In this document: piece by piece, positions 3 through 13,704 of the stretch
Layout: every line of letters starts with the position of its first letter
Position numbering within the stretch: the first letter of the stretch is position 1
Source of the DNA: Sphaerotilus natans
GTDB taxonomy: Bacteria > Pseudomonadota > Gammaproteobacteria > Burkholderiales > Burkholderiaceae_C
Assembly (NCBI RefSeq): GCF_900156335.1
Contig: NZ_FTMZ01000013.1
Coordinates: 62,001-126,000, forward strand
Length of the DNA: 64,000 nt
Direction of reading: 5' to 3'
Notes under the pieces: generated by a model
Databases searched by the model: none
What the model was told of the DNA's origin: nothing
Seen by the model: the letters and a program-made list of their open reading frames with translations, nothing else
Program-made: the position numbers and the translations under genes

Positions 3-1012
<1,010 letters not shown>

Positions 1013-1016
<4 letters not shown>

Positions 1017-2989
1017 CGGCCGTGCGCGCGGCCGGCGCCGGCTCGATCCGCACCCGGCTGCTGGCGCTGACGCTGGTGCCGCTGCTGGGCGTGCTGCCGC
1101 TGCTCGGGCTGATCCTGCTGCTGTGGGGCAACCAGGCCATCGACCTGCTGCTCTCGGGCCGGGTGCGCTCCGACCTGGCGGTCGCGCAGGGCTATTTCGA
1201 CCGGGTGCAGGCGGAGGTCGGCAGCGGCACGCAGGCGGTGGCCGGCTCGCATCTGCTGGTGCGCACGCTGGCGCTGACGCCGCCAGCCGAGCGCGAGGCG
1301 GCGCTGGCCGCGCTGCTGGCCCGCGAGCAGGTCCGGCACCGGCTCGACTTCCTGCGCATGCTGCCGCCGCAGGCGAGCGAGGCTGTGGCCGGCTCCGGGG
1401 GGGAGGCGGGGGTCGCGGTGATGGAGGCGGCGCAGCTCGAGGCGCTGGCGCCGGGTCTGGCCGAGCGGGCGCACATCGGTCTGGTCGACTCCGACGGCGC
1501 CGCTCCGAGCGAGCGGGTCACCGAATCGCGTGGCCTGGTGCTGATCGCGCAGGCGCGCATCGAGAACGCCGCCGGCGCCACGATCGGCTGGCTGCAGGGC
1601 GGCGTGCTGCTCAACCGCAATCTGGGCGTCATCGATCACATCAACCAGATCGTCTACCCGGACGGTGCGCTGGCCTTCGGCAGCCAGGGCACCGCGACGC
1701 TCTTTCTCGACGATGTGCGCATCAGCACCAATGTGCGGCTGTTCGGCGATCCGCAGGCCGAGCGCGCGGTCGGCACCCGGGTGTCGGCGGCGGTGCGCGA
1801 GGCGGTGCTCGGGCGCGGCGAGACCTGGCTGGGGCGCGCCTTCGTCGTCAAGGACTGGTATGTCTCGGGCTACCAGCCGTTGACGGATGCCAGCGGCCGG
1901 CGCGTCGGCATGCTGTATGTGGGCTTTCTCGAGCGGCCCTTCGTGGTGGTCAAGTACGCGGTGCTGGTCGGCATCGGGCTGCTGTTCTTCGTGGTGATGC
2001 TGCTGGCGGCCTGGTGGTCGCTGCGCTCGGCCGCGCGCATCTTCCGGCCGCTCGAGCGCATGACCGAGACGATGCAGCAGGTCGAGTCCGGCCAGGCGGC
2101 GCGGGTCGGGCCGCTGCAGGCCGACGGCGAGATCGAGCGGCTCGGCGCCACGCTCGACCATCTGCTCGACACGGTCGACGACAAGACCCGCGCGCTGCAG
2201 CGCTGGGGCGAGGAGCTCGACGCCAAGGTGGCCGAGCGCACCGCGGCGCTGCAGGCCGCGCAGCAGCAGCTGGTGCGCAGCGAGCGTCTGGCCACGATTG
2301 GCCAGCTCGCGGCCAGCATCGCGCACGAGATCAACAATCCGATCGCGGTGATCCAGGGCAATCTCGACCTGCTGCAGATGACGCTGGGCGAGGCCGCCGC
2401 ACCCGCCCGCGACGAGATCCGGCTGATCGACGCGCAGGTCGAGCGCATGCGCCTGATCGTCGCGCAGCTGCTGCAGCAGGCCCGGCCGAACGAGTACGCC
2501 GGCTATGCCGAGGCGCTCGATCCGGCCGAGGTGCTGCAGGCCAGCCTGGTGCTGGTGCGCCATCTGCTCGAGCGGGCGCAGGTGCGGCTGGTGCTGCGCG
2601 CGCCGCCCGGCGCGACCCCGCCGGTCCGGATCAATCGCCAGGAGCTGCAGCAGGTGCTGATCAACCTGATCGTCAACGCCACCCAGGCGATGCAGGAGCA
2701 GGGCGAGGCCGGAGCGGCGCGCGAGCTGGACATCGCGGTGCGCCACGAGGACGGCCGGGTGCTGCTGGCGGTGAGCGACTCCGGCCCCGGCCTGAGCGAG
2801 GCGGTGCGCGCGACGCTGTTCCAGCCCTTCTTCACCACCCGGCGCGACGGCAACGGCCTGGGCCTGTGGATCAGCCGTGGCCTGCTCGAGCGCTACGGCG
2901 GCGAGCTGCGTGCCGCCAACCGGTGCGACGGGGAGGGCGGAGCTCGCGGGGCGGTCTTCACCCTCGATCTGCCGGCAGCCGAAGCATGA
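1013..2989 (+). CDS. membrane sensor histidine kinase with Cache domain
   Basis: I chose the GTG at 1013 because it overlaps the stop of the upstream regulator (GTGA); an in-frame ATG at 995 is the alternative. From the GTG the protein is 658 residues. TM1 is at about 14-40, followed by a periplasmic Cache3/Cache2-like sensor of about 270 residues (its end shows the usual WYVSGYQPL...GMLYVGF pattern). TM2 is at about 315-337, then HAMP and a coiled coil. The HisKA H-box (IAHEINNP) has phospho-acceptor His438. The ATPase domain shows the N box (NLIVNATQ), G1 (DSGPGLS) and G2 (GNGLGLW). The kinase probably senses a small organic ligand in the periplasm and phosphorylates the upstream regulator. 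The ligand cannot be read from sequence. Confidence 0.92.
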
Positions 2990-3101
2990 TGTTCTGCGGT
3001 GAAATGGAAAAATCGCTCAGGTACCATGGCGGTGGTGGCAGGATGATGTCCGTCAAGTCGGGCCGCCGTGTCCGATGTTCCATCTGCAGGGGAAAAGACC
3101 G

Positions 3102-4613
3102 ATGAGCCGTTCCATCCATCCCGCCGGTGCGCCGGCCTATGCCGATCTCGAGGCGCGTTTCCAGCGTCTGTACCGTCTCGAGCATCTCGGCGCGATCGCC
3201 GGCTGGGACCAGGCCGCCAACATGCCCCCGAAGGGCAACGAGGCCCGCGCAGCCGCGATGGCCGAGCTCGAGACGCTGATGCATGCCCAGCGCACCGATC
3301 CGGCGCTGCGCGATCTGCTCGCGCGTGCCGAGGACGAGCCGCTGTCGGACGACCAGCGCGCCAACCTGCGCGAGATGCGCCGCGACTGGCTCGCCGCCAA
3401 CGCGCTGCCCTCCGCGCTGGTCGAGCGCCGCGCGCTGGCCACCGCGCGCTGCGAGCATGCCTGGCGCGCGCAGCGTCCGGCCAACGACTGGGCCGGCTTC
3501 GTCGAGAACTTCCGCCCGGTGGTGCAGGTCGCCCGCGAGGAGGCGATGCATCTGGCCGAGGCCACCGGCCTGGCGCCCTACGACGCGCTGCTCGATCGCT
3601 TCGAGCCGGGCATGACCGGCGCCGAGGTCGAGCGGGTCTTCAGCGACCTGCGCACCTGGCTGCCGGGCCTGATCCGCACCGTGCGCGAGCGCCAGCAGGC
3701 CGAGCCGCCGGTGCTCCGGCCGGTCGGCCCCTTTCCGCTGACGCAGCAGAAGGCGATCAGCCTGGCGGTGATGCGCCGACTCGACTTCGACTTCGAGGGC
3801 GGCCGGCTCGACGAGAGCACGCATCCCTTCTCCGGCGGCGTGCCCGAGGACGTGCGTCTGACCACCCGCTACCGTCTCGACGACCTGATGCAGAGCCTGA
3901 TGGGCACGGTCCACGAGACCGGCCACGCCCGCTACGAGCAGAACCTGCCGCGCGAGTGGCTGGGCCAGCCGCTGGCGCGCGCGCGCTCCTACGGCCTGCA
4001 CGAGAGCCAGAGCCTGTCCTTCGAGATGCAGCTCGGCGCCCACCCCGGCTTCGTCGCGCAGCTGGTGCCGCTGCTGGTCGAGCATTTCGGCGCGCAGCCG
4101 GCCTTCGAGGCTGAGAACCTGGCGCGCATGGTCACCCGGGTCGAGCCCGGCCTGATCCGCGTCGATGCCGACGAGGTGACCTATCCCGCACACGTCATCC
4201 TGCGCTTCGAGATCGAGCGCGCGCTGATCGAGGGTGCGATCGAGATCGATGACATCCCGGCGCTGTGGGACGAGAAGATGGCGCTCTGGCTGGGCCGCGA
4301 CACCCGCGGCAACTTTGGCGACGGCCCGATGCAGGACGTGCACTGGCCCTCGGGCCTGTTCGGCTACTTTCCCTGCTACACGCTGGGCGCGATGTACGCG
4401 GCGCAGTGGTTCGCCACGATGCGCCGCCAGACGCCCGACCTGGACGCACGCATCGCCGCCGGCGACCTCGCGCCGGTCTTCGACTGGCTGCACGATCACA
4501 TCTGGCGCCAGGGCGCACGCTGGACGACGCCCGAGCTCACGCGCCGCGCCAGCGGCGAGACGCTGAACCCGGCGCATTTCCGCGCCCATCTGGAACGGCG
4601 CTATCTGGGCTGA
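3102..4613 (+). CDS. M32-family zinc carboxypeptidase (carboxypeptidase Taq type)
   Basis: Cytoplasmic metallocarboxypeptidase that trims C-terminal residues from peptides. The ATG at 3102 (MSRSIHPAG) has a purine-rich ribosome site (AGGGGAAAAG) just upstream and gives 503 residues, the normal family size; an in-frame ATG at 3075 would add nine residues. The zinc site is clear: HETGH at residues 271-275, with the third ligand Glu301 in the HESQS motif typical of M32. It stands alone between the two-component pair and the acetate permease operon. The preceding 110 bases show no convincing promoter hexamers. Confidence 0.95.
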   Translation: MSRSIHPAGAPAYADLEARFQRLYRLEHLGAIAGWDQAANMPPKGNEARAAAMAELETLMHAQRTDPALRDLLARAEDEPLSDDQRANLREMRRDWLAANALPSALVERRALATARCEHAWRAQRPANDWAGFVENFRPVVQVAREEAMHLAEATGLAPYDALLDRFEPGMTGAEVERVFSDLRTWLPGLIRTVRERQQAEPPVLRPVGPFPLTQQKAISLAVMRRLDFDFEGGRLDESTHPFSGGVPEDVRLTTRYRLDDLMQSLMGTVHETGHARYEQNLPREWLGQPLARARSYGLHESQSLSFEMQLGAHPGFVAQLVPLLVEHFGAQPAFEAENLARMVTRVEPGLIRVDADEVTYPAHVILRFEIERALIEGAIEIDDIPALWDEKMALWLGRDTRGNFGDGPMQDVHWPSGLFGYFPCYTLGAMYAAQWFATMRRQTPDLDARIAAGDLAPVFDWLHDHIWRQGARWTTPELTRRASGETLNPAHFRAHLERRYLG

Positions 4614-4620
4614 TGCGGGG

Positions 4621-4659
4621 CTGACGCTGTTCTGACGGGTTTCTGACGAAGGGCTGACA
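4621..4659. promoter_or_regulatory. four CTGAC repeats spaced exactly 11 bp
   Basis: CTGACG occurs at 4621, 4632 and 4643 and CTGACA at 4654, so the repeats share one face of the helix. Such 11-bp direct repeats are typical of OmpR/PhoB-family operators. They start 7 bases after the carboxypeptidase stop and about 180 bases before yjcH, so they are a likely upstream operator for yjcH-actP. No regulator of that family is visible in the window. Confidence 0.5.
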
Positions 4660-4836
4660 TCGGGGTGTTATCAGCGATCTTGGTGCCAGATGGTGCTGAG
4701 ATAAGTGTTTTCCCTTGGTTTGTGGCATCGCCGGGATTGTGACGAATCCTTGCGGCACCGCCACCTATCATCCACCGCACCCCCTCGTTTCAACCCTTCG
4801 GACACCGCCCGGCAACGGCAGCGGTCGGCCCTTCTC

Positions 4837-5163
4837 ATGTCTTCCGATGTCTACCGGCGCATCCAGCGCCATCCCAAGTTCCAGGCGCTGGTGCAGCGGC
4901 GCAGCAGCTTTTCCTGGCTGCTGTCCTTTGTCGTGCTGGGCCTGTTCTACGGCTTCATCCTGCTGGTCGCCTTCAATCCGGCGCTGATGGCGATGCGCCT
5001 GGGCGGCGAGAGCTCGGTCGTCACCTTCGGGCCGGTGGCCATCCTGTCGATGTTCGTGCTGTTCTGGGCGCTGACCGCGGTCTATGTCCGCCGTGCCAAC
5101 GGCGAGTTCGACGACCTGACCCGCGAGCTGATCGAGGACGCCACCCAGGGAGGCCGCAAGTGA
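4837..5163 (+). CDS. yjcH: DUF485 inner-membrane protein, partner of acetate permease
   Basis: Small membrane protein of 108 residues with two TM helices (about 26-47 and 64-85) and a charged C-terminus. DUF485 proteins such as E. coli YjcH are nearly always encoded directly before actP. The ATG at 4837 is chosen because it gives the usual family N-terminus ([15 protein letters not shown]); upstream in-frame starts lie in non-conserved sequence. Its TGA shares one base with the ATG of actP (5163), so the two genes are translationally coupled. The biochemical role is unknown; it is inferred to assist or modulate the symporter. Confidence 0.9.
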
Positions 5164-6851
5164 TGCACCGCACGACCCTGTCCTCGCTGGCCCGTCTGGG
5201 CCTGGCCCTGCCGGCGCTGCTGCTGTCGGGGGCCGCGCTGGCCGCCGGCGATCCGATCGCCGCCGCCGAGAAGCAGCCGCTGAACCTGCATGCCATCGGC
5301 ATGTTCCTGGTCTTCGTGGCGTTCACGATGGGCATCACCTTCTGGGCCTCGAACCGCACCAAGTCGGCCTCGGACTTCTACACCGCCGGCGGCGGCATCA
5401 CCGGCTTCCAGAACGGCCTGGCGATCGCCGGCGACTACATGTCGGCGGCCACGCTGCTGGGCCTGACCGCGCTGGTCTACGGCTCGGGTCTGGACGGCTA
5501 CATCTACGCGCTGTGCTTCTTCGCCGGCTGGCCGATCATCCTGTTCCTGATGGCCGAGCGGCTGCGCAACCTGGGCCGCTTCACCTTCGCCGACATCACT
5601 TCCTACCGGCTCGACCAGGGCAAGGTGCGCACGATGGCGGCGATCGGCTCGCTGACCGTGGTCTGCTTCTACCTGATCGCGCAGATGGTGGGTGCCGGCC
5701 AGCTGATCAAGCTGCTGTTCGGCCTGGACTACAACATCGCGGTGGTGGCGGTCGGCGCGCTGATGATCGTCTACGTCATCAAGGGCGGCATGCTGGCCAC
5801 CACCTGGGTGCAGATCATCAAGGCCTGCCTGCTGATGGCCGGCGGCACGCTGGTGATGCTGCTGGCGATGAGCCAGTTCGGCTTCAGCTACACCACCGTG
5901 GTCGAGAAGGCGGTGGCCGCGCACAAGAGCGGCTGGTCGATGATGAGCCCGGGCAAGCTGATTCCGGATCCGGTGACCGCGGTGTCGCTGGCGCTGGGCC
6001 TGATGTTCGGCACCGCCGGTCTGCCGCACATCCTGATGCGCTTCTTCACCGTGACCAACGCCAAGGAAGCGCGCAAGTCGGTGCTGTACGCCTCGGGCTT
6101 CATCGCCTACTTCTTCAACGTCATCTTCCTGATGGGCCTGTGCGCCATCCTGATCGTCGGCCAGAACCCCGAGTTCTTCGAGGGCGGCCAGGTCGGCGGC
6201 AAGCTGATCGGCGGCGGCAACATGGTGGCGATGCACCTGGCCAAGGCGGTCGGCGGCAATCTGCTGCTGGGCTTCCTGGCGGCGGTGGCCTTCGCGACCA
6301 TCCTGGCGGTGGTGGCCGGTCTGGCGCTGGCGGGTGCCTCCTCGATCTCGCATGACCTGTATGCCCGCGTCATCATGAAGGGCCAGGCCAAGGAAGAGGA
6401 CGAGATGCGTGTCTCGCGCTTCGCCACCCTGGCGCTGGGCGTGATCGCGGTGGTGCTGGGCATCGCCTTCGAGAAGCAGAACGTCGCCTTCATGGTCGGT
6501 CTGGCCTTCGGCATCGCCGCGTCGAGCAACTTCCCCGTGCTGATCCTGTCGATGTACTGGAAGGGCCTGACGACACGCGGCGCGCTGGCCGGCGGCTACA
6601 TCGGCCTGGCGCTGGCGGTCACGCTGGTGCTGCTGTCGAAGTCGGTGTGGGTGACGGTGCTGGGCAACCCCGCCCCGCTGTTCCCGTACGAGCAACCGGC
6701 GCTGTTCTCGATGCCGGTGGCCTTCCTGATCTGCATCGTCGTCTCGAAGCTGGACCGCAGCGCGGCCGCGAAGAAGGAGCTTGACGCCTTCGACGACCAG
6801 TTCGTCCGGGCCCAGACCGGCTACGGCGCCGCGGCGGCCTCGAACCACTGA
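5163..6851 (+). CDS. actP: cation/acetate symporter (sodium:solute symporter family)
   Basis: Acetate/monocarboxylate uptake permease of the SSS family. It is about 562 residues with a cleavable-looking signal (MHRTTL... to ALAAG near residue 29), followed by some 13 hydrophobic segments, including the family stretch with GDYMSAAT and the [11 protein letters not shown] block. The start is ATG 5163, overlapping the yjcH stop by one base; GTG 5160 is an in-frame alternative. It forms a two-gene operon with yjcH and is followed by a strong intrinsic terminator. Regulation probably runs through the 11-bp repeats 500 bases upstream; this is inference. Confidence 0.94.
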
Positions 6852-6905
6852 TTTCTGTACTGTGACCACAGTCTCCGGCGTCCCCTGACCGAGGACGCTT
6901 TCGAA

Positions 6906-6943
6906 ACGCCTCCGGCTCCTGCGGGCCGGGGGCGTCTTTTTTG
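6906..6943 (+). terminator. intrinsic terminator after actP
   Basis: Inverted arms ACGCCTCCGGC and GCCGGGGGCGT (one wobble or mismatch) close a short loop and are followed by T6. It lies 55 bases after actP and just before the convergent coiled-coil gene, so it separates the two convergent units. Confidence 0.85.
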
Positions 6944-6963
6944 TTGTGCTCCGTTCGACGGAT

Positions 6964-7596
6964 TCAGGTCTGTTGCAGTGCGGCAGTCCGCAGCAGCCAC
7001 GCCAGCAGGCCCAGGATGCCGAGCAGACCGGCGCCACCGCCCAGGCCGATCCAGCGCTGGTGCCGACCGAGCGATTCGATCTGGCGCATCAGCTGCGCCT
7101 GTCCGTTCGCCTGCTGTCTCTCCAGTGCGGTGAGCCGCTCGTCCTGACGAGCCAGCTCCTGAGCGATGCGTGTGCAGGCCTGCGCTGTCTGATGGGCCAG
7201 CGCAAGGCATTCGGCCAGATCCTGCCCGGACCGGGCGGATTGCCTGCTCAGAGCCTCCAGGGCTCCGTTGGCCTGCTCCAGGGTGGCGGGCGTTCGTGCC
7301 AGTCCAGCCTCGAGCAGATCGCCGAGCTGGTCACTCGCGCTGCCCACGCTCTGGCGCACGCGGCGCAGCGCCTCGTCGAAGCTGCGGCTGAGTCCGGCCT
7401 GCACGGCGGGCAGGTCCTCGTCGGCGGTGCGGCGGCACATGTCCTCCACCGCCTCGAGCCGTTCCTCGATGCGTTCGACCTGCTGGCGCAGCGGTGCCAG
7501 CGGCATGTCCATGACGCGGCCCATGAGCTCGCGCAGTTCCTGTTCGGAGGATTCGATTGCCTGGAAGTCGGACGAGGAGGGCGGGGGCGTGTTCAT
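6964..7596 (-). CDS. tail-anchored coiled-coil protein of the GTPase cassette (unknown function)
   Basis: I do not recognise a named family. The product is 210 residues: a Pro/Ser-rich N-terminus (1-12), a long charged helical region with heptad-like patterning (about 15-180, rich in Leu, Arg, Glu and Gln), and a single C-terminal hydrophobic helix (about 182-203) ending seven residues before the C-terminus. This is the layout of a tail-anchored membrane protein with a cytosolic coiled coil. It is the last gene of a three-gene minus-strand operon, 37 bases after the second dynamin-like GTPase. A scaffold or membrane adaptor for the two GTPases is a reasonable inference. Confidence 0.8.
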   Translation of the reverse strand: MNTPPPSSSDFQAIESSEQELRELMGRVMDMPLAPLRQQVERIEERLEAVEDMCRRTADEDLPAVQAGLSRSFDEALRRVRQSVGSASDQLGDLLEAGLARTPATLEQANGALEALSRQSARSGQDLAECLALAHQTAQACTRIAQELARQDERLTALERQQANGQAQLMRQIESLGRHQRWIGLGGGAGLLGILGLLAWLLRTAALQQT

Positions 7597-7633
7597 CGTG
7601 TGAGGTCGGGGACGGGGGACGGATTCAGGCGTT

Positions 7634-9601
7634 TCAGGCGCCCAGCAGCACCTGACGACGCGCCGCGGACAGGTCGAGCATGGCCAGCAGCTCGATCAGC
7701 CTGTCTGCCGCCGGCTGGTGCGTGTGCAGCGTCTCGCGGCGCTGTTGCAGTTCCTGGGCATAGGCGGACAGAAGGAAGGCGCGGATCTGGCGACCGCGCT
7801 CCAGATCCTCGTCGAGCGTGCGGCTGGCGGCGGCACGGCTGGCCGACAGCACTGCCAGCGCGGCATCGATCTCGCGCCGCTCGCCCTGAAGCTGATCGAC
7901 GGCCAGCCGCAGGCGGACCTCGTCGGCCCGGAGCTGCACGCACTCCTGGCTCAGGTGCTGGCGGCGCAGATCGGCCTGATGTGTCCAAGCCCGGCGTGCG
8001 AAGGCGGCCGCCGCCGCGATACCCGCCTGCATCGTGTCGATCATCCGGCGACAGTCCTGCGCAAAATCGTCCGAAAGGCGTGGGAAATACGTTTCCAGCC
8101 GGTAGCCCGACAGGCGGTCGCGCAGGGGCTCCTGCGTGCGCTCGATCTCGTCGCGCAGGGCCGTGACCTGTGTCTCCAGCCGGGGCTGGACGAGCTTCCA
8201 GAAATGCTGCTGCGGGGCCGTGGCCGGATCCGGTCGCAGTCGCAGGACCTGCAGCACCAGATCCGAGGTGAATTCATCGAGCAGCCGGCACAGATGCCGG
8301 GTGTCGGTGTCCAGGGCGTCGATGGCTCGGATCGCATCGGACGCGTCGAGCCGTGCACTCATCGGTGCCAGCGTGGCCGCGACGGCCTCGGGGTCATGCC
8401 GGGCGAGCACGATCTCCCGCATCTGGCGCGCAGCGACGAGGTCACGGTGCCGGGCCTCGGCCGCATCGATGCGCGCCAGCAACTGCGTGAGCCGCTCCTG
8501 CAGTTCGGCGTTCTCCTGCTCCATGCCGGCCAGACGGGCCTGGCGGATTCGTTGTATCGAGGTCTGGGTGTCGATCGCACTGCGCAGCCGCGCGATCGGG
8601 CTGACGGCAGCCGCGATGTCGGCCAGCAGTTCCCGGCGCAGGCCGGCCACCACCGGCCCCAGGGCATGCCACAGCGGGTCGCGCTCGCCGCGCTCGCCGG
8701 CCTCTGCCCAGGACTGCCCGAACTCCAGGGGAAAGCAGCGCTCGGGCCGAGCGGCATCGGGCGAGAGGTCTGGCATGAAGGTGCGCAGCTCCTGGAGCAG
8801 CCGCTCGCGGAAGAAGCCGGCGGTCAGCGGCGTGCGGCCCTGGGTCAGATGTGCTCGAGCCGCCTCCCGCACCGACTGGGCGGTGTAGGTGTAGGTGGTC
8901 ACGATGCGGAAGCGCTCGGGCATGAGTTGCCAGTCCTCGATGTCGGGCAGGCGCAGGCCCTGCGGGCGCAGGAAGGACAGGTCGTCGCCCCGCCCGACCA
9001 GCAGGATCAGGTCGGCATGCGGCAGGTGGCGCCGAGCGGTCGCGGCGACATGCTCGGCCTCGATCTCGTCGCGGGGCTGGTCGCCCGGCAGGTCGAGCAG
9101 ACGCACTGGCTGCGCCTGCGTGTCCCCGGCCTCGAAGCAGTCCGACGGGATCGCCACGCTGACCGGACGGTCTGCCTGCAGATCGCGGCTGCCCATGCGC
9201 TCGCGCAGCGCGCGCAGGGCCTCGGTCATCGCCTGATCGCTCTCGATGCGCTGTTCGCCGGCCGGATGATCGATCTGGGGCAGGTGCAGCCGCCAGCAGG
9301 CATCCGGCGAGCGCCGGTATTCCATCGCCGTGGCCGTGGCCGACTGACCCTGCGCGCGCCCGCCGCGCAGCACCAGGGAGACACGCTCCAGGGCTGTGCC
9401 TCGCACGCCCATCAGGTCCAGCAGCAGCGTGGTCTTGCCGACCTGCGTGCGACCGAACACCGCGACATAGGCCTCGCCCTGCTCGTCGCCACGCGACAGG
9501 CGGGTGCGCACGTCCGCGCTCAGGGTCTCGAGGAAGGCCTGGTGGCCGCGCAGCGCCCAGTCGAGCCTCTGCCTGTGCAACCGGTTCCAGCGTGTGCTCA
9601 T
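7634..9601 (-). CDS. dynamin-like P-loop GTPase B
   Basis: Large protein of 655 residues. The N-terminal GTPase domain has the P-loop GRTQVGKTT (50-58), a dynamin-like switch I region (GQSATATAMEY, about 85-95) and the G3 motif DLPG (170-173). No N/TKxD G4 motif is visible; the expected place reads VTTYTYT. Residues from about 330 to the end are almost entirely helical and coiled-coil-like, as in dynamin stalks, and I see no transmembrane segment. Its ATG overlaps the stop of the upstream GTPase by four bases (ATGA), so the two are made together. Dynamin-superfamily membership is inferred from the motif pattern and the long helical tail; the substrate membrane and role are unknown. Confidence 0.8.
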   Translation of the reverse strand: MSTRWNRLHRQRLDWALRGHQAFLETLSADVRTRLSRGDEQGEAYVAVFGRTQVGKTTLLLDLMGVRGTALERVSLVLRGGRAQGQSATATAMEYRRSPDACWRLHLPQIDHPAGEQRIESDQAMTEALRALRERMGSRDLQADRPVSVAIPSDCFEAGDTQAQPVRLLDLPGDQPRDEIEAEHVAATARRHLPHADLILLVGRGDDLSFLRPQGLRLPDIEDWQLMPERFRIVTTYTYTAQSVREAARAHLTQGRTPLTAGFFRERLLQELRTFMPDLSPDAARPERCFPLEFGQSWAEAGERGERDPLWHALGPVVAGLRRELLADIAAAVSPIARLRSAIDTQTSIQRIRQARLAGMEQENAELQERLTQLLARIDAAEARHRDLVAARQMREIVLARHDPEAVAATLAPMSARLDASDAIRAIDALDTDTRHLCRLLDEFTSDLVLQVLRLRPDPATAPQQHFWKLVQPRLETQVTALRDEIERTQEPLRDRLSGYRLETYFPRLSDDFAQDCRRMIDTMQAGIAAAAAFARRAWTHQADLRRQHLSQECVQLRADEVRLRLAVDQLQGERREIDAALAVLSASRAAASRTLDEDLERGRQIRAFLLSAYAQELQQRRETLHTHQPAADRLIELLAMLDLSAARRQVLLGA

Positions 9602-11874
9602 GCCTGGCGGTGCGGGTTGGGCGGCAGTCCGAAGGGATCGAGATCGCGGCCCGAGCGGCCCAGCGCATCGAGCATGTCGCGCTGGAAGCGGCTGGCGTCG
9701 GCCAGTGCACAGGCGAGCCGGTCATGCTCCATCAGCCGCTCATCGAGACGATAGCGCCGGCGCAGGCTCTGCTGCAGATGCCTGCGCAGCGCCTGCATCA
9801 GCTGGTCGAAATGCACCATGAAATGCACCAGATGGCGGTCCAGGATGCTGCGCAGCATCGCTTGGCTGAGCTCGCGCATCGCCTGGTCGCGCCGACGCAC
9901 CTCCGTCAGCGCCGCATTGATCAGGAAGCCGATGGCGATCACTCCGGTGATGGCGGCAGCCATGCTGCCGCCGGCCGCCGCCGAGGCCACTGGCGTGACG
10001 GTCGAGCTGAGCTCGGCTGCAGTGTCGGCCAGTGTGCTGGCGCTGCTGGTCGTGCTGTCGGCGGGGTCTGCTGGATCGCCCAGACCCAGCAGAGACAGCA
10101 GCGATCCGACCGTGTCGATGCGGCCGTCCGCGGAAAAATCGATGGCCAGCATGACGGCCAGGCCCTGCAGCAGCGGCACGGCGACTTCGGAGAACTGCTG
10201 GAACTGCTCGCGCAGCGGCGCTCCCGCCTCGTGGCGGCCCATGTCCTCCAGCGGCGTCAGCGTCTCGGCATGGACACCAGCCAGCGCCGGCAGTGCGGCG
10301 GCGATGCGGGTGTATTCGAGCGCCATGGCTGGAAGCAGCCGCACGGTGCGCTCCAGCGCCTCGCTGCTGCGATCGGGGGGCGCATCGCCCGGCGCAGCCA
10401 GCAGGGCGCGCAGATTGCGCCGTGTCTGCGGATCGGTCAGTCGGGACGGCACGGGCTGGTCATCGGCATCCAGGTAGCCCAGGCGGTGCAGCGCCGTGGC
10501 GGTCTCGGGCAGGGCGGCCGTCACCGGCCGCGGGCCTGACAGCACCCGTGCCGTCAGGCTGCTGATCCGATCCACATACTGCGGCAGCACGTCGCCCGGC
10601 GCCTGCCAGGCGGCGGTGAGGGTCTCGCGCAGCCGGATATGCTGGTCGCTCACCGTGTCGCACACCCGGACGAGCTTGTTCAGCAGCCCTTCGTGGCGCT
10701 TCACCAGAATCTCGTCGAGGCGGTGGCGGGCACGCTCGCCGTGCTGTTCGAGCATGTCTTGGACGGACTGCTGGTAGAGCTCGCGCAGCTCGGCGGCCGC
10801 ATCGTCGAAGAGGCCCAGGCAGTCGTCCATGACCTGCGCGGCACTGCCTCCGCCATGACCGGCCAGGCTCTGCTGGTGCAGCGCTGCGCGGCTGTGCACC
10901 AGATTGATGGCTCGCCCGAGGTCGCGGTCGATGGTCTCGCCGAGCCGGGCCAGTTGCATCCGGCGCTGCGCACCGCTGCCGGCCGAGGTGTCGCGCAGCA
11001 TCGCGCTGGCGGCCGGCAGCCATTCGTCCCGGTAGGTCGGATCGTCCGCGCCGACGCACAGCACCCGCTGCATCGCCGTCTCGACCGGCTCTTCCGGAAA
11101 GAAGACCCGGGCTGCGCTGAGGCGCAGCGCATCGCGGCGCTCAGGATCGCGGGCCAGCCCCTCGGTCTTGCTCACCATCACCCAGGGGCGGCAGGCCTGA
11201 AGCTCCGGCGGCAGCAGATCGCGCTGGATCTCCTGTTGCTGCTGATTGGCCAAGCGGGTCTGGTCGGTCACCAGGATGCAGCCCGACGCCCCCATCAGCG
11301 TCAGCCGCATCGACTCCTGCCAGTCGCGGTTGTCGCGCTGGATCGCCTCGTAGCCCGGCAGCAGGATCAGGGCCTGCCGGTCGCTCTGGAAATGCCGGCG
11401 AGGTACCTTCAGGACGGGCAGCATGACTTCGGGCATCTCGCCTCGTGCGGCCCGGCAGAACTGCTGCGCGTCAGTGGCGGGCACATCGCGAAGCACCATG
11501 TGGCTGCCGTCCTCGCTCGGACACAGCTGGCGCAGCAGGCCTTGCGGCCGGGTGCAGCTGCTGTCTTCCTGGACCAGGATGGGCAACTGCTCGCCGCGGC
11601 CCTCGTTGGGTGCCAGCCAGCGTGCGTCTTCGCCCTGCAGGTCATAGAGCGCGCGCACCAGCGTGGTCTTGCCGGCGCCCTGCGAGCCACCGACCGCCAG
11701 CAGCCACTGGTTGCCGACCACTTCCGCGAGCATCAGCCGCCGCATGACCGGCAGGAGCGCTGCATCGATGCGGTCTCGGTCGTTCTGGAGGATGGCCGCA
11801 GCAGCACGCAGGTCGCGCAGCGCGCGGTTGAGGGGCTCTAACAGCAGTTCAGGATTTTCCATCGGCAGGCACAT
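9598..11874 (-). CDS. dynamin-like P-loop GTPase A with C-terminal membrane segment
   Basis: A 758-residue protein, first gene of the GTPase operon. The P-loop is GGSQGAGKTT (62-71) and switch I resembles dynamin-like proteins (GEQLPILV). The G3 position reads LLPG (171-174), lacking the usual Asp, while a G4-like SKTE is present (about 235-238). The middle is long and helical. Near residues 640-670 a Gly/Ala/Ile-rich stretch (GGSMAAAITGVIAIGFLINAA, as positions) looks like a membrane paddle or TM hairpin, followed by another amphipathic helical region. The ATG at 11874 has only a weak ribosome site and an ATG four codons later is possible. It lies 110 bases downstream of the copper operon on the same strand, so read-through is possible. 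Confidence 0.8.
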   Translation of the reverse strand: MCLPMENPELLLEPLNRALRDLRAAAAILQNDRDRIDAALLPVMRRLMLAEVVGNQWLLAVGGSQGAGKTTLVRALYDLQGEDARWLAPNEGRGEQLPILVQEDSSCTRPQGLLRQLCPSEDGSHMVLRDVPATDAQQFCRAARGEMPEVMLPVLKVPRRHFQSDRQALILLPGYEAIQRDNRDWQESMRLTLMGASGCILVTDQTRLANQQQQEIQRDLLPPELQACRPWVMVSKTEGLARDPERRDALRLSAARVFFPEEPVETAMQRVLCVGADDPTYRDEWLPAASAMLRDTSAGSGAQRRMQLARLGETIDRDLGRAINLVHSRAALHQQSLAGHGGGSAAQVMDDCLGLFDDAAAELRELYQQSVQDMLEQHGERARHRLDEILVKRHEGLLNKLVRVCDTVSDQHIRLRETLTAAWQAPGDVLPQYVDRISSLTARVLSGPRPVTAALPETATALHRLGYLDADDQPVPSRLTDPQTRRNLRALLAAPGDAPPDRSSEALERTVRLLPAMALEYTRIAAALPALAGVHAETLTPLEDMGRHEAGAPLREQFQQFSEVAVPLLQGLAVMLAIDFSADGRIDTVGSLLSLLGLGDPADPADSTTSSASTLADTAAELSSTVTPVASAAAGGSMAAAITGVIAIGFLINAALTEVRRRDQAMRELSQAMLRSILDRHLVHFMVHFDQLMQALRRHLQQSLRRRYRLDERLMEHDRLACALADASRFQRDMLDALGRSGRDLDPFGLPPNPHRQA

Positions 11875-11913
11875 GACCGGAGCAGGACCGGGTACAGAGG
11901 TGCAAGCCTAAGG

Positions 11914-11950
11914 ACGGTGCGCGACAGGTGGTGTCGTGCACCGTTTTTTT
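11914..11950 (+). terminator. hairpin with T7 tract, plus-strand orientation
   Basis: ACGGTGC (11914-11920) pairs with GCACCGT (11938-11944), extended inside by GACA/TGTC, and T7 follows on the plus strand. No plus-strand gene ends here. Read on the minus strand, from the copper operon into the GTPase operon, the same hairpin lacks a U-tract, so it would be at most a partial terminator. Confidence 0.6.
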
Positions 11951-11951
11951 G

Positions 11952-11967
11952 TGTGACTTACATCACG
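11952..11967. promoter_or_regulatory. CRP-like palindrome upstream of the GTPase operon
   Basis: TGTGA-N6-TCACG differs in one base from the CRP consensus TGTGA-N6-TCACA. It lies 78-93 bases before the ATG of GTPase A and just after the cusF-like stop. A CRP/FNR-family regulator site is a reasonable guess, but a single site of this length can occur by chance. Confidence 0.4.
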
Positions 11968-11983
11968 CGGTACTGGATAGTTT

Positions 11984-12274
11984 TCAGCGCGCCGGTGCCA
12001 GCTTCGTCACCGTGTACTGCCCGCCCACCTTGTCCGCATCGAACTTCACCTTGTCGCCCACCTTCACGGCGTCGAGCATCCCGGCGTCCTGCACGCGGAA
12101 GACCATCGTCATCGGGGGCATGTCGAGGTTCTTGATCTCGCCATGCTTGAGCGTGATCTTCTGCTGCGGCTTGTCGATCTTCATGACCTCGGCGTCGGTG
12201 CTCTGGGCCTGTGCGGGTGCGGCGGCCAGCACGGCGGAGGTGGCGAGGGTGAGGGCTGCGATCCAGCGGTTCAT
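11984..12274 (-). CDS. CusF-like periplasmic copper-binding protein
   Basis: Small exported metallochaperone of 96 residues. It has a signal peptide (1-24, ending AQAQ) and then an OB-fold CusF-type domain. The ATG at 12274 follows a good ribosome site (GGAGAAG); longer frames are read-through of the intergenic region. Metal ligands by alignment with E. coli CusF are His44, Met55 and Met57, in the same 8-3-2 spacing. The position of the cation-pi Trp is occupied by Met52, giving a His/Met3 set. It is the last gene of the copper operon, 60 bases after the multicopper oxidase, and probably hands Cu(I) to the oxidase or to an export complex. Confidence 0.88.
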   Translation of the reverse strand: MNRWIAALTLATSAVLAAAPAQAQSTDAEVMKIDKPQQKITLKHGEIKNLDMPPMTMVFRVQDAGMLDAVKVGDKVKFDADKVGGQYTVTKLAPAR

Positions 12275-12333
12275 CGTGACTTCTCCATTCGGACAGGTTG
12301 AAAACGGTTGAGGTGCCCTGTGGGATGACACGG

Positions 12334-13704
12334 TCAGTGATGGCCATGCCCGCTCGGCTTGCGAGCGTTCACCGCGGCCTCGCCCGAGGGCGGGATCGCC
12401 CGCACCGGCTCGGCCAGCGGCGCGCCGGTCCACTCAAAGGCGACGGTGCCCTTCGGGTGCTTGAACCAGCCGGGGTCGCGGTAGTCTCCCGGCTTCTGGT
12501 CACGGCGGACCTTCAGGATGCTGAACATGCCGCCCATCTCGACGCCGCCGAACGGGCCCTGGCCGGTCATCATCGGCGCGGTGTTGTCGGGCAGCGGCAT
12601 TTCCATCTCGGCCATGTCGGCCATGCCGCGCTCGCCCATGGCCATGTAGCCGGGGATGAGCTTCGTGATCTTGCGGGCGACGTCGGTGTGGTCGACGCCG
12701 ATCATCGTCGGCACGTCGTGGCCCATCGCGTTCATGGTGTGGTGGCTCTTGTGGCAATGGAAGGCCCAGTCGCCTTCCTCGCTGGCGATGAACTCTACCT
12801 GGCGCATCTGGCCGACCGCCACGTCGGTCGTCACCTCCGGCCAGCGCGCCGACTTCGGCACCGGGCCGCCGTCGGTGCCGGTGACCTCGAACTCGTGGCC
12901 GTGCAGGTGGATCGGGTGGTTCGTCATCGTCAGGTTGCCCACGCGGATGCGCACCCGGTCGTTCAGCCGCACGTTGAGCGTGTCGATGCCGGGAAAGATG
13001 CGGCTGTTCCAGGCCCAGAGGTTGAAGTCGAGCATGGTCATCACCTTGGGCGTGGCGCTGCCGGGCTCGATGTCGAAGGCGTTGAGCAGGAAGCAGAAGT
13101 CGCGATCGACATCGGCGATCAGCGGGTGCCTCGCCTTCGGGTGCGTGATCCACATCCCGTACATGCCCATGGCCATCTGCACCATCTCGTCGGCGTGCGG
13201 GTGGTACATGAAGGTGCCGGGGCGGCGCGCCTCGAACTCGTAGACGAAGGTCTTGCCCGGCGGGATGGCCGGCTGCGTCAGGCCGGCCACGCCGTCCATG
13301 CCGTTGGGCAGGCGCTGGCCGTGCCAGTGCACCGCGTGGTGCTCGGGCAGGCGGTTGGTGACGAAGATGCGCACCTGGTCGCCCTCGACCACCTCGATCG
13401 TCGGGCCGGGCGACTGGCCGTTGTAGCCCCAGAGGTTGGCGTTGAAGCCGGGCGTCATCTCGCGCACCACCGGCTCGGCGACGAGGTGGAATTCCTTGAC
13501 GCCGGCGTTCATGCGCCAGGGCAGGCTCCAGCCGTTGAGCGTCACGACCGGGCGGTAGGGGCGGCCGGTGGCGGGCTGCAGCGGTGCGGCGGTGGCGGCC
13601 GAGGTCTGGATGACCGGCTCGGGCAGCGCAGCCATGGCCACGCGGCTGACCGAGGCGGCGGCGACCGCGGCCCCGGCCGAGAAGAGGGAACGTCGGGAAA
13701 TCAT
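12334..13704 (-). CDS. periplasmic multicopper oxidase (copper resistance)
   Basis: 456 residues. A Tat signal (SRRSLF at residues 3-8, hydrophobic to about 25) implies export already folded with copper. All four copper-ligand motifs are present: HWHG (126-129), HPH in YHPHADEM, HPIHLHG, and HCHKSHHTMNAM, which fits HCH-x3-H-x4-M of a type 1 site. A Met/Asp/Glu-rich stretch near the C-terminus (around MADMAEMEM) and a His-rich tail (GHGHH) resemble the extra copper-binding segments of CueO/CopA-type oxidases. It probably oxidises toxic Cu(I) in the periplasm. It sits between the TolC-type and CusF-like genes of one operon, with a 32-base gap from the TolC-type gene. Confidence 0.92.
   Translation of the reverse strand: MISRRSLFSAGAAVAAASVSRVAMAALPEPVIQTSAATAAPLQPATGRPYRPVVTLNGWSLPWRMNAGVKEFHLVAEPVVREMTPGFNANLWGYNGQSPGPTIEVVEGDQVRIFVTNRLPEHHAVHWHGQRLPNGMDGVAGLTQPAIPPGKTFVYEFEARRPGTFMYHPHADEMVQMAMGMYGMWITHPKARHPLIADVDRDFCFLLNAFDIEPGSATPKVMTMLDFNLWAWNSRIFPGIDTLNVRLNDRVRIRVGNLTMTNHPIHLHGHEFEVTGTDGGPVPKSARWPEVTTDVAVGQMRQVEFIASEEGDWAFHCHKSHHTMNAMGHDVPTMIGVDHTDVARKITKLIPGYMAMGERGMADMAEMEMPLPDNTAPMMTGQGPFGGVEMGGMFSILKVRRDQKPGDYRDPGWFKHPKGTVAFEWTGAPLAEPVRAIPPSGEAAVNARKPSGHGHH

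Follow-up and report, generated by a model that had tools for sequence, protein, structure and literature searches.

A rare three-gene cassette of two dynamin-like GTPases and a tail-anchored helical protein in Sphaerotilus natans and unrelated bacteria

The A-B-C cassette and its occurrence

We analysed a 64,000-nucleotide (nt) stretch of the Sphaerotilus natans assembly GCF_900156335.1 (contig NZ_FTMZ01000013.1, positions 62,001 to 126,000, forward strand), hereafter the window, whose positions are used for all coordinates, and focused on a trio of reverse-strand genes termed A, B, and C (Table 1). A preliminary description of this DNA had reported two unlike P-loop GTPases of 758 and 655 residues (A and B) overlapping by ATGA, followed 37 bases past B by a 210-residue protein (C) with a C-terminal transmembrane (TM) helix. 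All of these open reading frame (ORF) claims matched the sequence base for base, with the overlap at 9598-9601, the gap at 7597-7633, and the TM helix ending nine residues before the C-terminus of C, and the membrane-like segment placed near residues 640-670 of A corresponded to the most hydrophobic stretch of that protein. Since relatives start A at or near the Met of MENPE/MESPE, the true start of A may be residue 5 (~11862). A promoter scan gave no match.

Compared with the copies in Sphaerotilus sulfidivorans, which also provided the best named match of A (86% identity), the ratios of nonsynonymous to synonymous substitution (dN/dS) were 0.15 for A, 0.26 for B, and 0.37 for C. These values indicate that all three genes are under purifying selection and, therefore, that the cassette has been kept functional and its ORFs are not chance.

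We opened 15 loci with an intact B, namely, the window, the S. sulfidivorans locus (L002), six of 11 plasmid records, a gut scaffold, one contig from a viral collection, and five Escherichia coli loci, and a C-like gene followed B in every one of them. Because ten of these loci, the viral-collection contig included, are of one closely related Enterobacteriaceae type, the set represents five independent lineages. In Gluconobacter, the C-like gene lies beyond an IS5 and starts at the end of the conserved motif. Both A and C are frameshifted in Klebsiella variicola p_AA035 (L018); several further genes on the same stretch are annotated as split, and the frameshifts may, therefore, reflect sequencing error rather than decay.

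The unit is rare in all collections searched. Using tblastn against 72,556 plasmid records, A was found in 11 and B in 12 (32-47% identity), with A and B adjacent in the same 11 records. A single phage record out of 50,697 matched, an unverified gut scaffold with the order A-B-C whose identity to the window in the aligned parts was 21% for A, 19% for B, and 23% for C, and a search of viral contigs with the A and B of this scaffold found nothing. A and B each occurred in 2 of 60 genomes of a sample of relatives (own genome included), both carriers belonging to the genus, in which 13 genomes were searched for A and B. The class (369 genomes), phylum (398), and order (399) samples, which overlap and for which few candidates were scored per genome, returned the own genome only, plus one 51-residue P-loop match (class). 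Among 5,426 complete E. coli genomes, eight matched the A-B query, five of them covering at least 80%, one carrying a truncated A, and two carrying a 61-base remnant. Together, these results show that the trio is one rare unit, and its genes seem to move together between unrelated bacteria.

The twelfth plasmid record with a B match, from Sphingomonas, held only a B-like stretch within a 1,250-residue protein. This protein (Sphingomonas sp. NIC1 plasmid, L010 5000-8752) has AAA_22/ResIII-type matches, a phospholipase D family gene adjoins it, and a RelE-type toxin gene lies nearby; the locus may belong to another defence system that uses a related domain.

Table 1. Features of the cassette in the window; residue numbers refer to the encoded proteins
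Feature	Position	Strand	Description and basis
Gene A	9598..11874	-	758 residues; divergent dynamin-like GTPase; ORF, profile-profile match, predicted fold
Gene B	7634..9601	-	655 residues; dynamin-family GTPase without membrane segment; ORF, Pfam Dynamin_N
Gene C	6964..7596	-	210 residues; all-helical, coiled-coil-like, tail-anchored; ORF, AlphaFold2, position after B
A P-loop GSQGAGKT, residues 63-70	11665..11688	-	sequence; alignment
A hydrophobic paddle-like segment, residues 638-656	9907..9963	-	hydrophobicity 2.12, best stretch of A
B P-loop GRTQVGKT, residues 50-57	9431..9454	-	sequence
B G3 motif DLPG, residues 170-173	9083..9094	-	sequence; corresponding A position is LLPG
C N-terminal motif ELM-x6-PL-x-PL, residues 23-36	7489..7530	-	alignment, shuffle test on first 60 residues
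C C-terminal TM helix, residues 183-201	6994..7050	-	hydrophobicity 1.87, best stretch of C
Cassette extent	6943..11979		replaced by 26 bp in sister genome G001 (L068); identity steps at ~6950 and ~11990 versus G006
Intrinsic-terminator-like hairpin	6906..6935	+	3' of actP, abuts the cassette on the left

Domain assignment of the three proteins

No Pfam or NCBIfam family matched A, B, or C above its curated cut-off, and PADLOC 2.0 gave P-loop or coiled-coil matches only. We relied on profile-profile comparison, in which the A and B families were aligned by hhalign with a pool of seven dynamins from related genomes. Each of these carries a Dynamin_N match, none is A or B, and one was obtained via the cluster on contig C233. 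The pool of other GTPases used as a control consisted of the six usable GTPases out of 11 control loci; the pooled dynamins themselves matched this control pool at 96.8% over 98 columns.

B can be firmly assigned to the dynamin family by its sequence. Pfam Dynamin_N matched all seven B family members (best 6.1e-8), the B of the window (P0002) scoring 16.7 bits, under the curated cut-off of 27. B matched the pooled dynamins at 97.2% over 150 columns (E 4e-11), compared to 28.5% for the six other GTPases, 55.3% over 33 columns for a mixed GTPase/ABC control pool, and 0.1% for reversed dynamins. The DLPG motif of B was present in 15/15 loci, while the TKxD position reads TTY(T/S)(Y/F), with ATKAF in the gut scaffold as the exception (the G4 positions in A and B were assigned by alignment and from known motifs). 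Hydrophobicity in B never rose above 1.42. A phmmer search of the PDB with B gave no match, and a profile search gave weak stretches only (best E 0.025).

For A, the same comparison gave 95.5% over 197 columns with the pooled dynamins (E 1.4e-8), 18.6% with the six other GTPases, 81.9% over 27 P-loop columns with the mixed GTPase/ABC pool, and 0.2% with reversed dynamins. For both A and B, the dynamin claim rests on the pooled match and on its extent over the whole G domain, single sequences being less clear. The P-loop G-x-Q-G-A-G-K-T was invariant among the seven aligned A proteins, and all seven have LLPG at the DxPG position; at the TKxD position they have SKTE, TKTE, or TQSD, the last being that of the gut scaffold. 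In all 14 open A frames among the 15 loci (the frame is broken in L018), the best hydrophobic segment lies in the C-terminal third, with values of 1.89-2.13.

The AlphaFold2 model of A, built from three sequences with a mean pLDDT of 43.4, placed four mitofusin chains on top in Foldseek (best E 2.9e-5, TM-score 0.23 by query). After VIA re-alignment of the Foldseek candidates, all 14 rows with Z of at least 8 were Mfn1, Mfn2, or Fzo1. Of the 50 PDB rows listed, the top 25 belonged to the dynamin superfamily (Z 10.4 to 6.6), EHD4 being counted among its members. Rank 26 was HflX at Z 6.5, and the lower dynamin rows are, therefore, tied with other GTPases. The matches cover approximately residues 1-342. 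Long helices were predicted, at low confidence, for residues 280-408 and 637-707, the latter holding the hydrophobic segment. A direct phmmer search of the PDB with A gave no match, and a profile search gave weak stretches only, the best (E 0.027) to yeast-type Sey1, a dynamin-superfamily protein. Thus, of the two dynamin-type GTPases proposed in the preliminary description, B stands firmly, and the assignment of A as a mitofusin/BDLP-type dynamin is supported, not proven, since the profile-profile and fold data behind it are of limited quality. Absence of a dynamin-type fold and stalk, or of joint conservation of the three genes, had been named there as a reason to abandon the idea; we found neither absence, with evidence on the stalk limited to the low-confidence helices of A.

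A could also be another TRAFAC GTPase of the DO-GTPase type acting as a switch for B, which would be compatible with the other readings discussed below. DO-GTPase2 matched two of the seven A members (best 2.5e-5), compared to one (0.007) for Dynamin_N, and LLPG replaces DxPG. However, the cassette consists of three genes, none of which matches the Pfam GAP1 model, while the paddle-like segment, the long helices, and both the profile and the fold comparison favour dynamins, and we give this alternative a slim chance.

C was predicted by AlphaFold2 (single sequence, pLDDT 71.5) to form three long helices spanning residues 8-29, 33-98, and 103-208, and the C-terminal hydrophobic helix was found at all 14 loci with an open C frame, in agreement with the third, membrane-anchored helical protein described before. 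No GTPase match was found for C in the Pfam/NCBIfam scan. The first 60 residues of C aligned with the P. luteola and Klebsiella C proteins better than all 1000 shuffles; with the gut-scaffold C there was no signal, 184 of 1000 shuffles being equally good. Since tblastn with C by itself found no match in plasmids, the case for its homology is made by position, architecture, and the N-terminal motif, and for the gut-scaffold C by position and architecture only. C also matched the PADLOC ZorA model (6.7e-6, ZorA positions 305-434 of 590); we judged such scores to be coiled-coil similarity and set aside a relationship to ZorA or SMC proteins.

A second dynamin cluster was seen in the genus at 398-7499 of L060 (G005:C233:1-9000), encoding an 842-residue Dynamin_N protein, dynamins of 618 and 614 residues, and a helical, coiled-coil-like protein of 282-299 residues without a Pfam match. 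This combination of dynamins and a rod protein is possibly a separate undescribed system.

Mobility and genomic context

As named from their ORFs, the trio is flanked on the left by an actP-like permease gene and on the right by a cusF-like gene and a copper oxidase gene, the latter two in the same direction as the trio. In the sister genome G001, window positions 287-6942 and 11980-12279 align to sites 26 bases apart, which makes this an empty site for exactly A, B, and C, the cassette forming a 5.0-kb block in Sphaerotilus. The empty site holds a hairpin like that at 6906-6935. A and B are absent from 11 of the 13 genus genomes, which makes a gain more probable than a loss. The site was examined in G001 and G003, the latter aligning just in actP.

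The S. sulfidivorans contig (G006) carries the trio at the same site. Identity to this contig was 90-99% from the start of the window to 6800 and fell to ~74% at 6950; right of the cassette it recovered near 12000, dipped at 12200-12350, and then ran at 95-97% to 14000. Between the window genome (G000) and G006, synonymous divergence (dS) was 0.55 for A, 0.56 for B, and 0.50 for C, whereas five flanking genes had values of 0.08-0.16 and the cusF-like gene (11984-12433) reached 0.36. The simplest reading of these sequence comparisons would be either an exchange of the cassette or two separate acquisitions of it at the same site. A second stretch with 76-78% identity to G006 lies at 15.2-16.0 kb, which shows that divergence is not confined to the cassette.

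Next to the trio in other bacteria, genes were chosen by annotation for PADLOC scanning (19 neighbour/slot genes, 10 far-control proteins from four regions, and 10 more). In Enterobacteriaceae, two small genes (~141 and 129 residues) precede a cargo slot (L019-L024, L015); neither had a Pfam match in L015, and the first also lacked a PADLOC match. The 1,441-base anchor stretch matched 20 of 5,426 E. coli genomes, seven over at least 80% and one only in the part behind the two genes, and it precedes four of five complete trios in E. coli. AbiTii (3.6e-13) and the Hachiman gene HamA1 (2.1e-109) were found 1-8 kb from the trio in L020, HamB1 (5.2e-133, likewise Hachiman) ~12 kb from it in L021, and the Gabija genes GajA (4.1e-235) and GajB (2.1e-231) directly after it on the viral-collection contig. 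In L022, the truncated A is followed by LmuA-like (6.1e-7) and LmuB-like (5.5e-31) genes, and in L024 the A remnant is followed by a gene annotated as HEPN/Toprim. Of five other anchor loci, L070 and L074 carry an Lmu-like set behind a BCCT transporter (PADLOC scan for L070 only), one has a CBASS set ~7 kb off, one has hipAB behind IS1 and an integrase, and one has mostly metabolic and transposase genes. Sugar-utilisation genes precede the trio in S43 and R2. The Enterobacteriaceae slot is a general cargo site rich in defence genes. In the window, by contrast, the trio is not part of a defence island and stands alone between actP and the cusF-like gene.

Other neighbours bear on an envelope-stress module, in which a C-anchored A-B pair would repair or seal the inner membrane when heat, metals, or chemicals put it under stress, and would travel as plasmid stress cargo. 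On the Klebsiella plasmids and one E. coli plasmid, a heat-resistance locus (KefB-GI, PsiE-GI, or HtpX) stands on one side of the trio and ter-type genes on the other, the trio lies beside copper genes in Sphaerotilus, and Bacillus DynA also serves in membrane surveillance against antibiotics (PMC8844932). However, the stress neighbours represent one plasmid context, those of the E. coli chromosomal, P. luteola, and Gluconobacter loci being different, and the copper genes are present in G001 without the trio. We, therefore, consider this module rather unlikely.

The location on large plasmids, six among 11 of which were typed as conjugative, and in an island with an integrase, together with the truncated A in one E. 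coli genome and the 61-base remnant in two, would suit a conflict role that serves the carrying mobile element, such as entry exclusion or a membrane toxin of the addiction type together with its controller. Against this, the chromosomal copy is under purifying selection in two Sphaerotilus lineages and the unit lacks a small toxin-antitoxin pair, which leaves such a function improbable.

Possible role and comparison with known systems

We consider it an even call that the trio is a heterotypic dynamin machine carried as mobile cargo, most likely acting against phages or mobile elements. A, as a mitofusin/BDLP-like dynamin, would insert its hydrophobic paddle into the membrane, B would be the soluble dynamin partner that completes a GTP-driven assembly, and C would be the tail-anchored coiled coil by which the A-B pair is held or positioned at the inner membrane. 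Infection could disturb the inner membrane, through phage damage or holin action, and A and B would then assemble on C, in a GTP-dependent manner, at this putative inner-membrane site. The remodelled membrane might hinder productive release, much as DynA delays lysis in Bacillus; in a variant that we find nearly as likely, assembly would rupture the membrane and abort the infection. The outcome might be either to seal or to break the membrane. Gene anatomy, the dynamin affinity of B, joint conservation, mobility, purifying selection, and, in Enterobacteriaceae, a cargo slot that also holds defence systems were observed; defence is the leading, still unproven, role. The membrane-remodelling or defence module put forward in the preliminary description is backed by circumstantial evidence, i.e., mobility and the presence of known defence systems in the same cargo slot, while an enrichment of defence genes around the plasmid copies did not hold up.

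Several observations weigh against this reading. At the protein level, comparison with single sequences gave 51.8% over 26 columns between A and an ABC transporter (best single dynamin, 54.0% over 23 columns) and 89.3% over 43 columns between B and a non-dynamin GTPase (L071), slightly more than the 87.9% over 91 columns of the best single dynamin. Single A members favour DO-GTPase2 over Dynamin_N, and the model of A has a mean pLDDT of 43 with fold-match root mean square deviations (rmsd) mostly of 8-13 Å. As the G3 motif of A lacks its Asp and the G4 motif of B is non-canonical, GTP hydrolysis is uncertain. With respect to context, no known defence gene was observed beside the trio in Sphaerotilus, only one Enterobacteriaceae slot shows a clear defence context, the slot in E. 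coli also carries metabolic genes, and the HEPN/Toprim protein of L024 had no PADLOC match. Near the trio on plasmids (Klebsiella neighbours excluded), PADLOC matches were found in three of three scanned plasmids compared to two of four far control regions (restriction-modification, CBASS), and these numbers are too few, so the plasmid context says little. By protein, six of eight chosen near the trio on three plasmids matched PADLOC (IetA and MkoA, both partly, IetS, PDC-S15, E1-E2/JAB, and LmuA), compared to five of ten chosen far proteins on four plasmids; an enrichment of defence neighbours on plasmids was tested on these data and not upheld, near and far showing no clear difference.

A more specific form of the defence reading, which we put forward tentatively and with some doubt, is a new three-component immune system built on a composite GTPase that would be active only when A and B are paired, with the tail-anchored coiled coil recruiting the pair to the inner membrane on infection. 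The idea stems from the complementary gaps of the two proteins, A having a SKTE-like G4 motif but LLPG, and B having DLPG but mostly lacking TKxD. If true, bacteria would have an immune GTPase machine that works at the membrane, loosely like the antiviral Mx/IRG proteins and spread by gene transfer across at least three Pseudomonadota classes and perhaps beyond.

A description of the trio was not found in the literature searched, as judged by titles and the beginnings of abstracts. The main texts of a 2022 E. coli selection study (PMC9519451) and of the DefensePredictor paper (PMC13092281) contain neither 'dynamin' nor 'GTPase', and that of a study of E. coli defence islands (PMC10121019) contains neither 'dynamin' nor 'Eleos'. 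A 2026 review names 'Dynamins' as a membrane-targeting anti-phage class (PMC12926258). Our conclusion is that the trio probably represents a defence or membrane-protection system not yet described. Bacterial dynamins are widespread and their jobs poorly known, the membrane placement of a heterotypic pair being an open question, and a compact three-gene unit that is intact across unrelated bacteria, with its own anchor at each locus examined, provides a natural minimal system.

Among known systems, LeoABC, also known as Eleos (original paper reportedly Millman 2022), resembles the trio in having paired dynamin-like genes in an operon and one extra membrane anchor. Leo consists of two dynamin-like proteins encoded in one island operon, with the extra anchor at the LeoC end (PMC4159319). 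The third Leo gene encodes part of the second dynamin, whereas C has no GTPase match, and full-length homology of A and B to LeoA and LeoBC was not found, matches being limited to P-loop stretches. This likeness of plan, with paired dynamins, an extra anchor, and an island location (PMC4159319), would also fit a vesicle or secretion module as proposed for LeoABC, in which A and B bud or fuse membranes and release vesicles. However, no secretion gene stands beside the trio in the neighbourhoods examined, bar conjugation genes in P. luteola, and the PADLOC LeoA and LeoBC models match A and B around the P-loop only (E 0.0018-0.1), and we think it improbable that the trio works in this way.

GAP1 is the constant partner of the DO-GTPases, whose systems are defined by GAP1 plus variable effectors (PMC7159879). 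These GTPases are likewise often paired, near membranes, and in predicted conflict systems, and two A members show the weak DO-GTPase2 match, but no GAP1 match was found in the Pfam scan of the three cassette genes, the neighbours of distant relatives not being scanned. With Zorya, the likeness is limited to the coiled-coil tail of ZorA, and C differs in having one TM helix, at its C-terminus.

The Campylobacter pair Cj-DLP1/DLP2 (PDB 5owv, 5oxf) is operon-encoded and heterotypic, forms a 2:2 tetramer, binds lipid, and tethers liposomes, and tetramer assembly triggers GTPase activity and lipid binding (PMC6104087). The low-confidence model of A aligns with Cj-DLP over 371 residues (Z 7.3, rmsd 23 Å), while the abstract of PMC6104087, compared here by description and not by sequence, gives no third tail-anchored gene. 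Finally, Bacillus DynA is a fusion of two dynamin genes (PMC4159319), a C-like partner not being mentioned in the texts consulted, and in this it differs from the trio. It clusters on the membrane, delays lysis during phage infection, and gives measured phage protection (PMC8844932), and as a bacterial dynamin tied to phage protection it matches the role proposed here for the trio.

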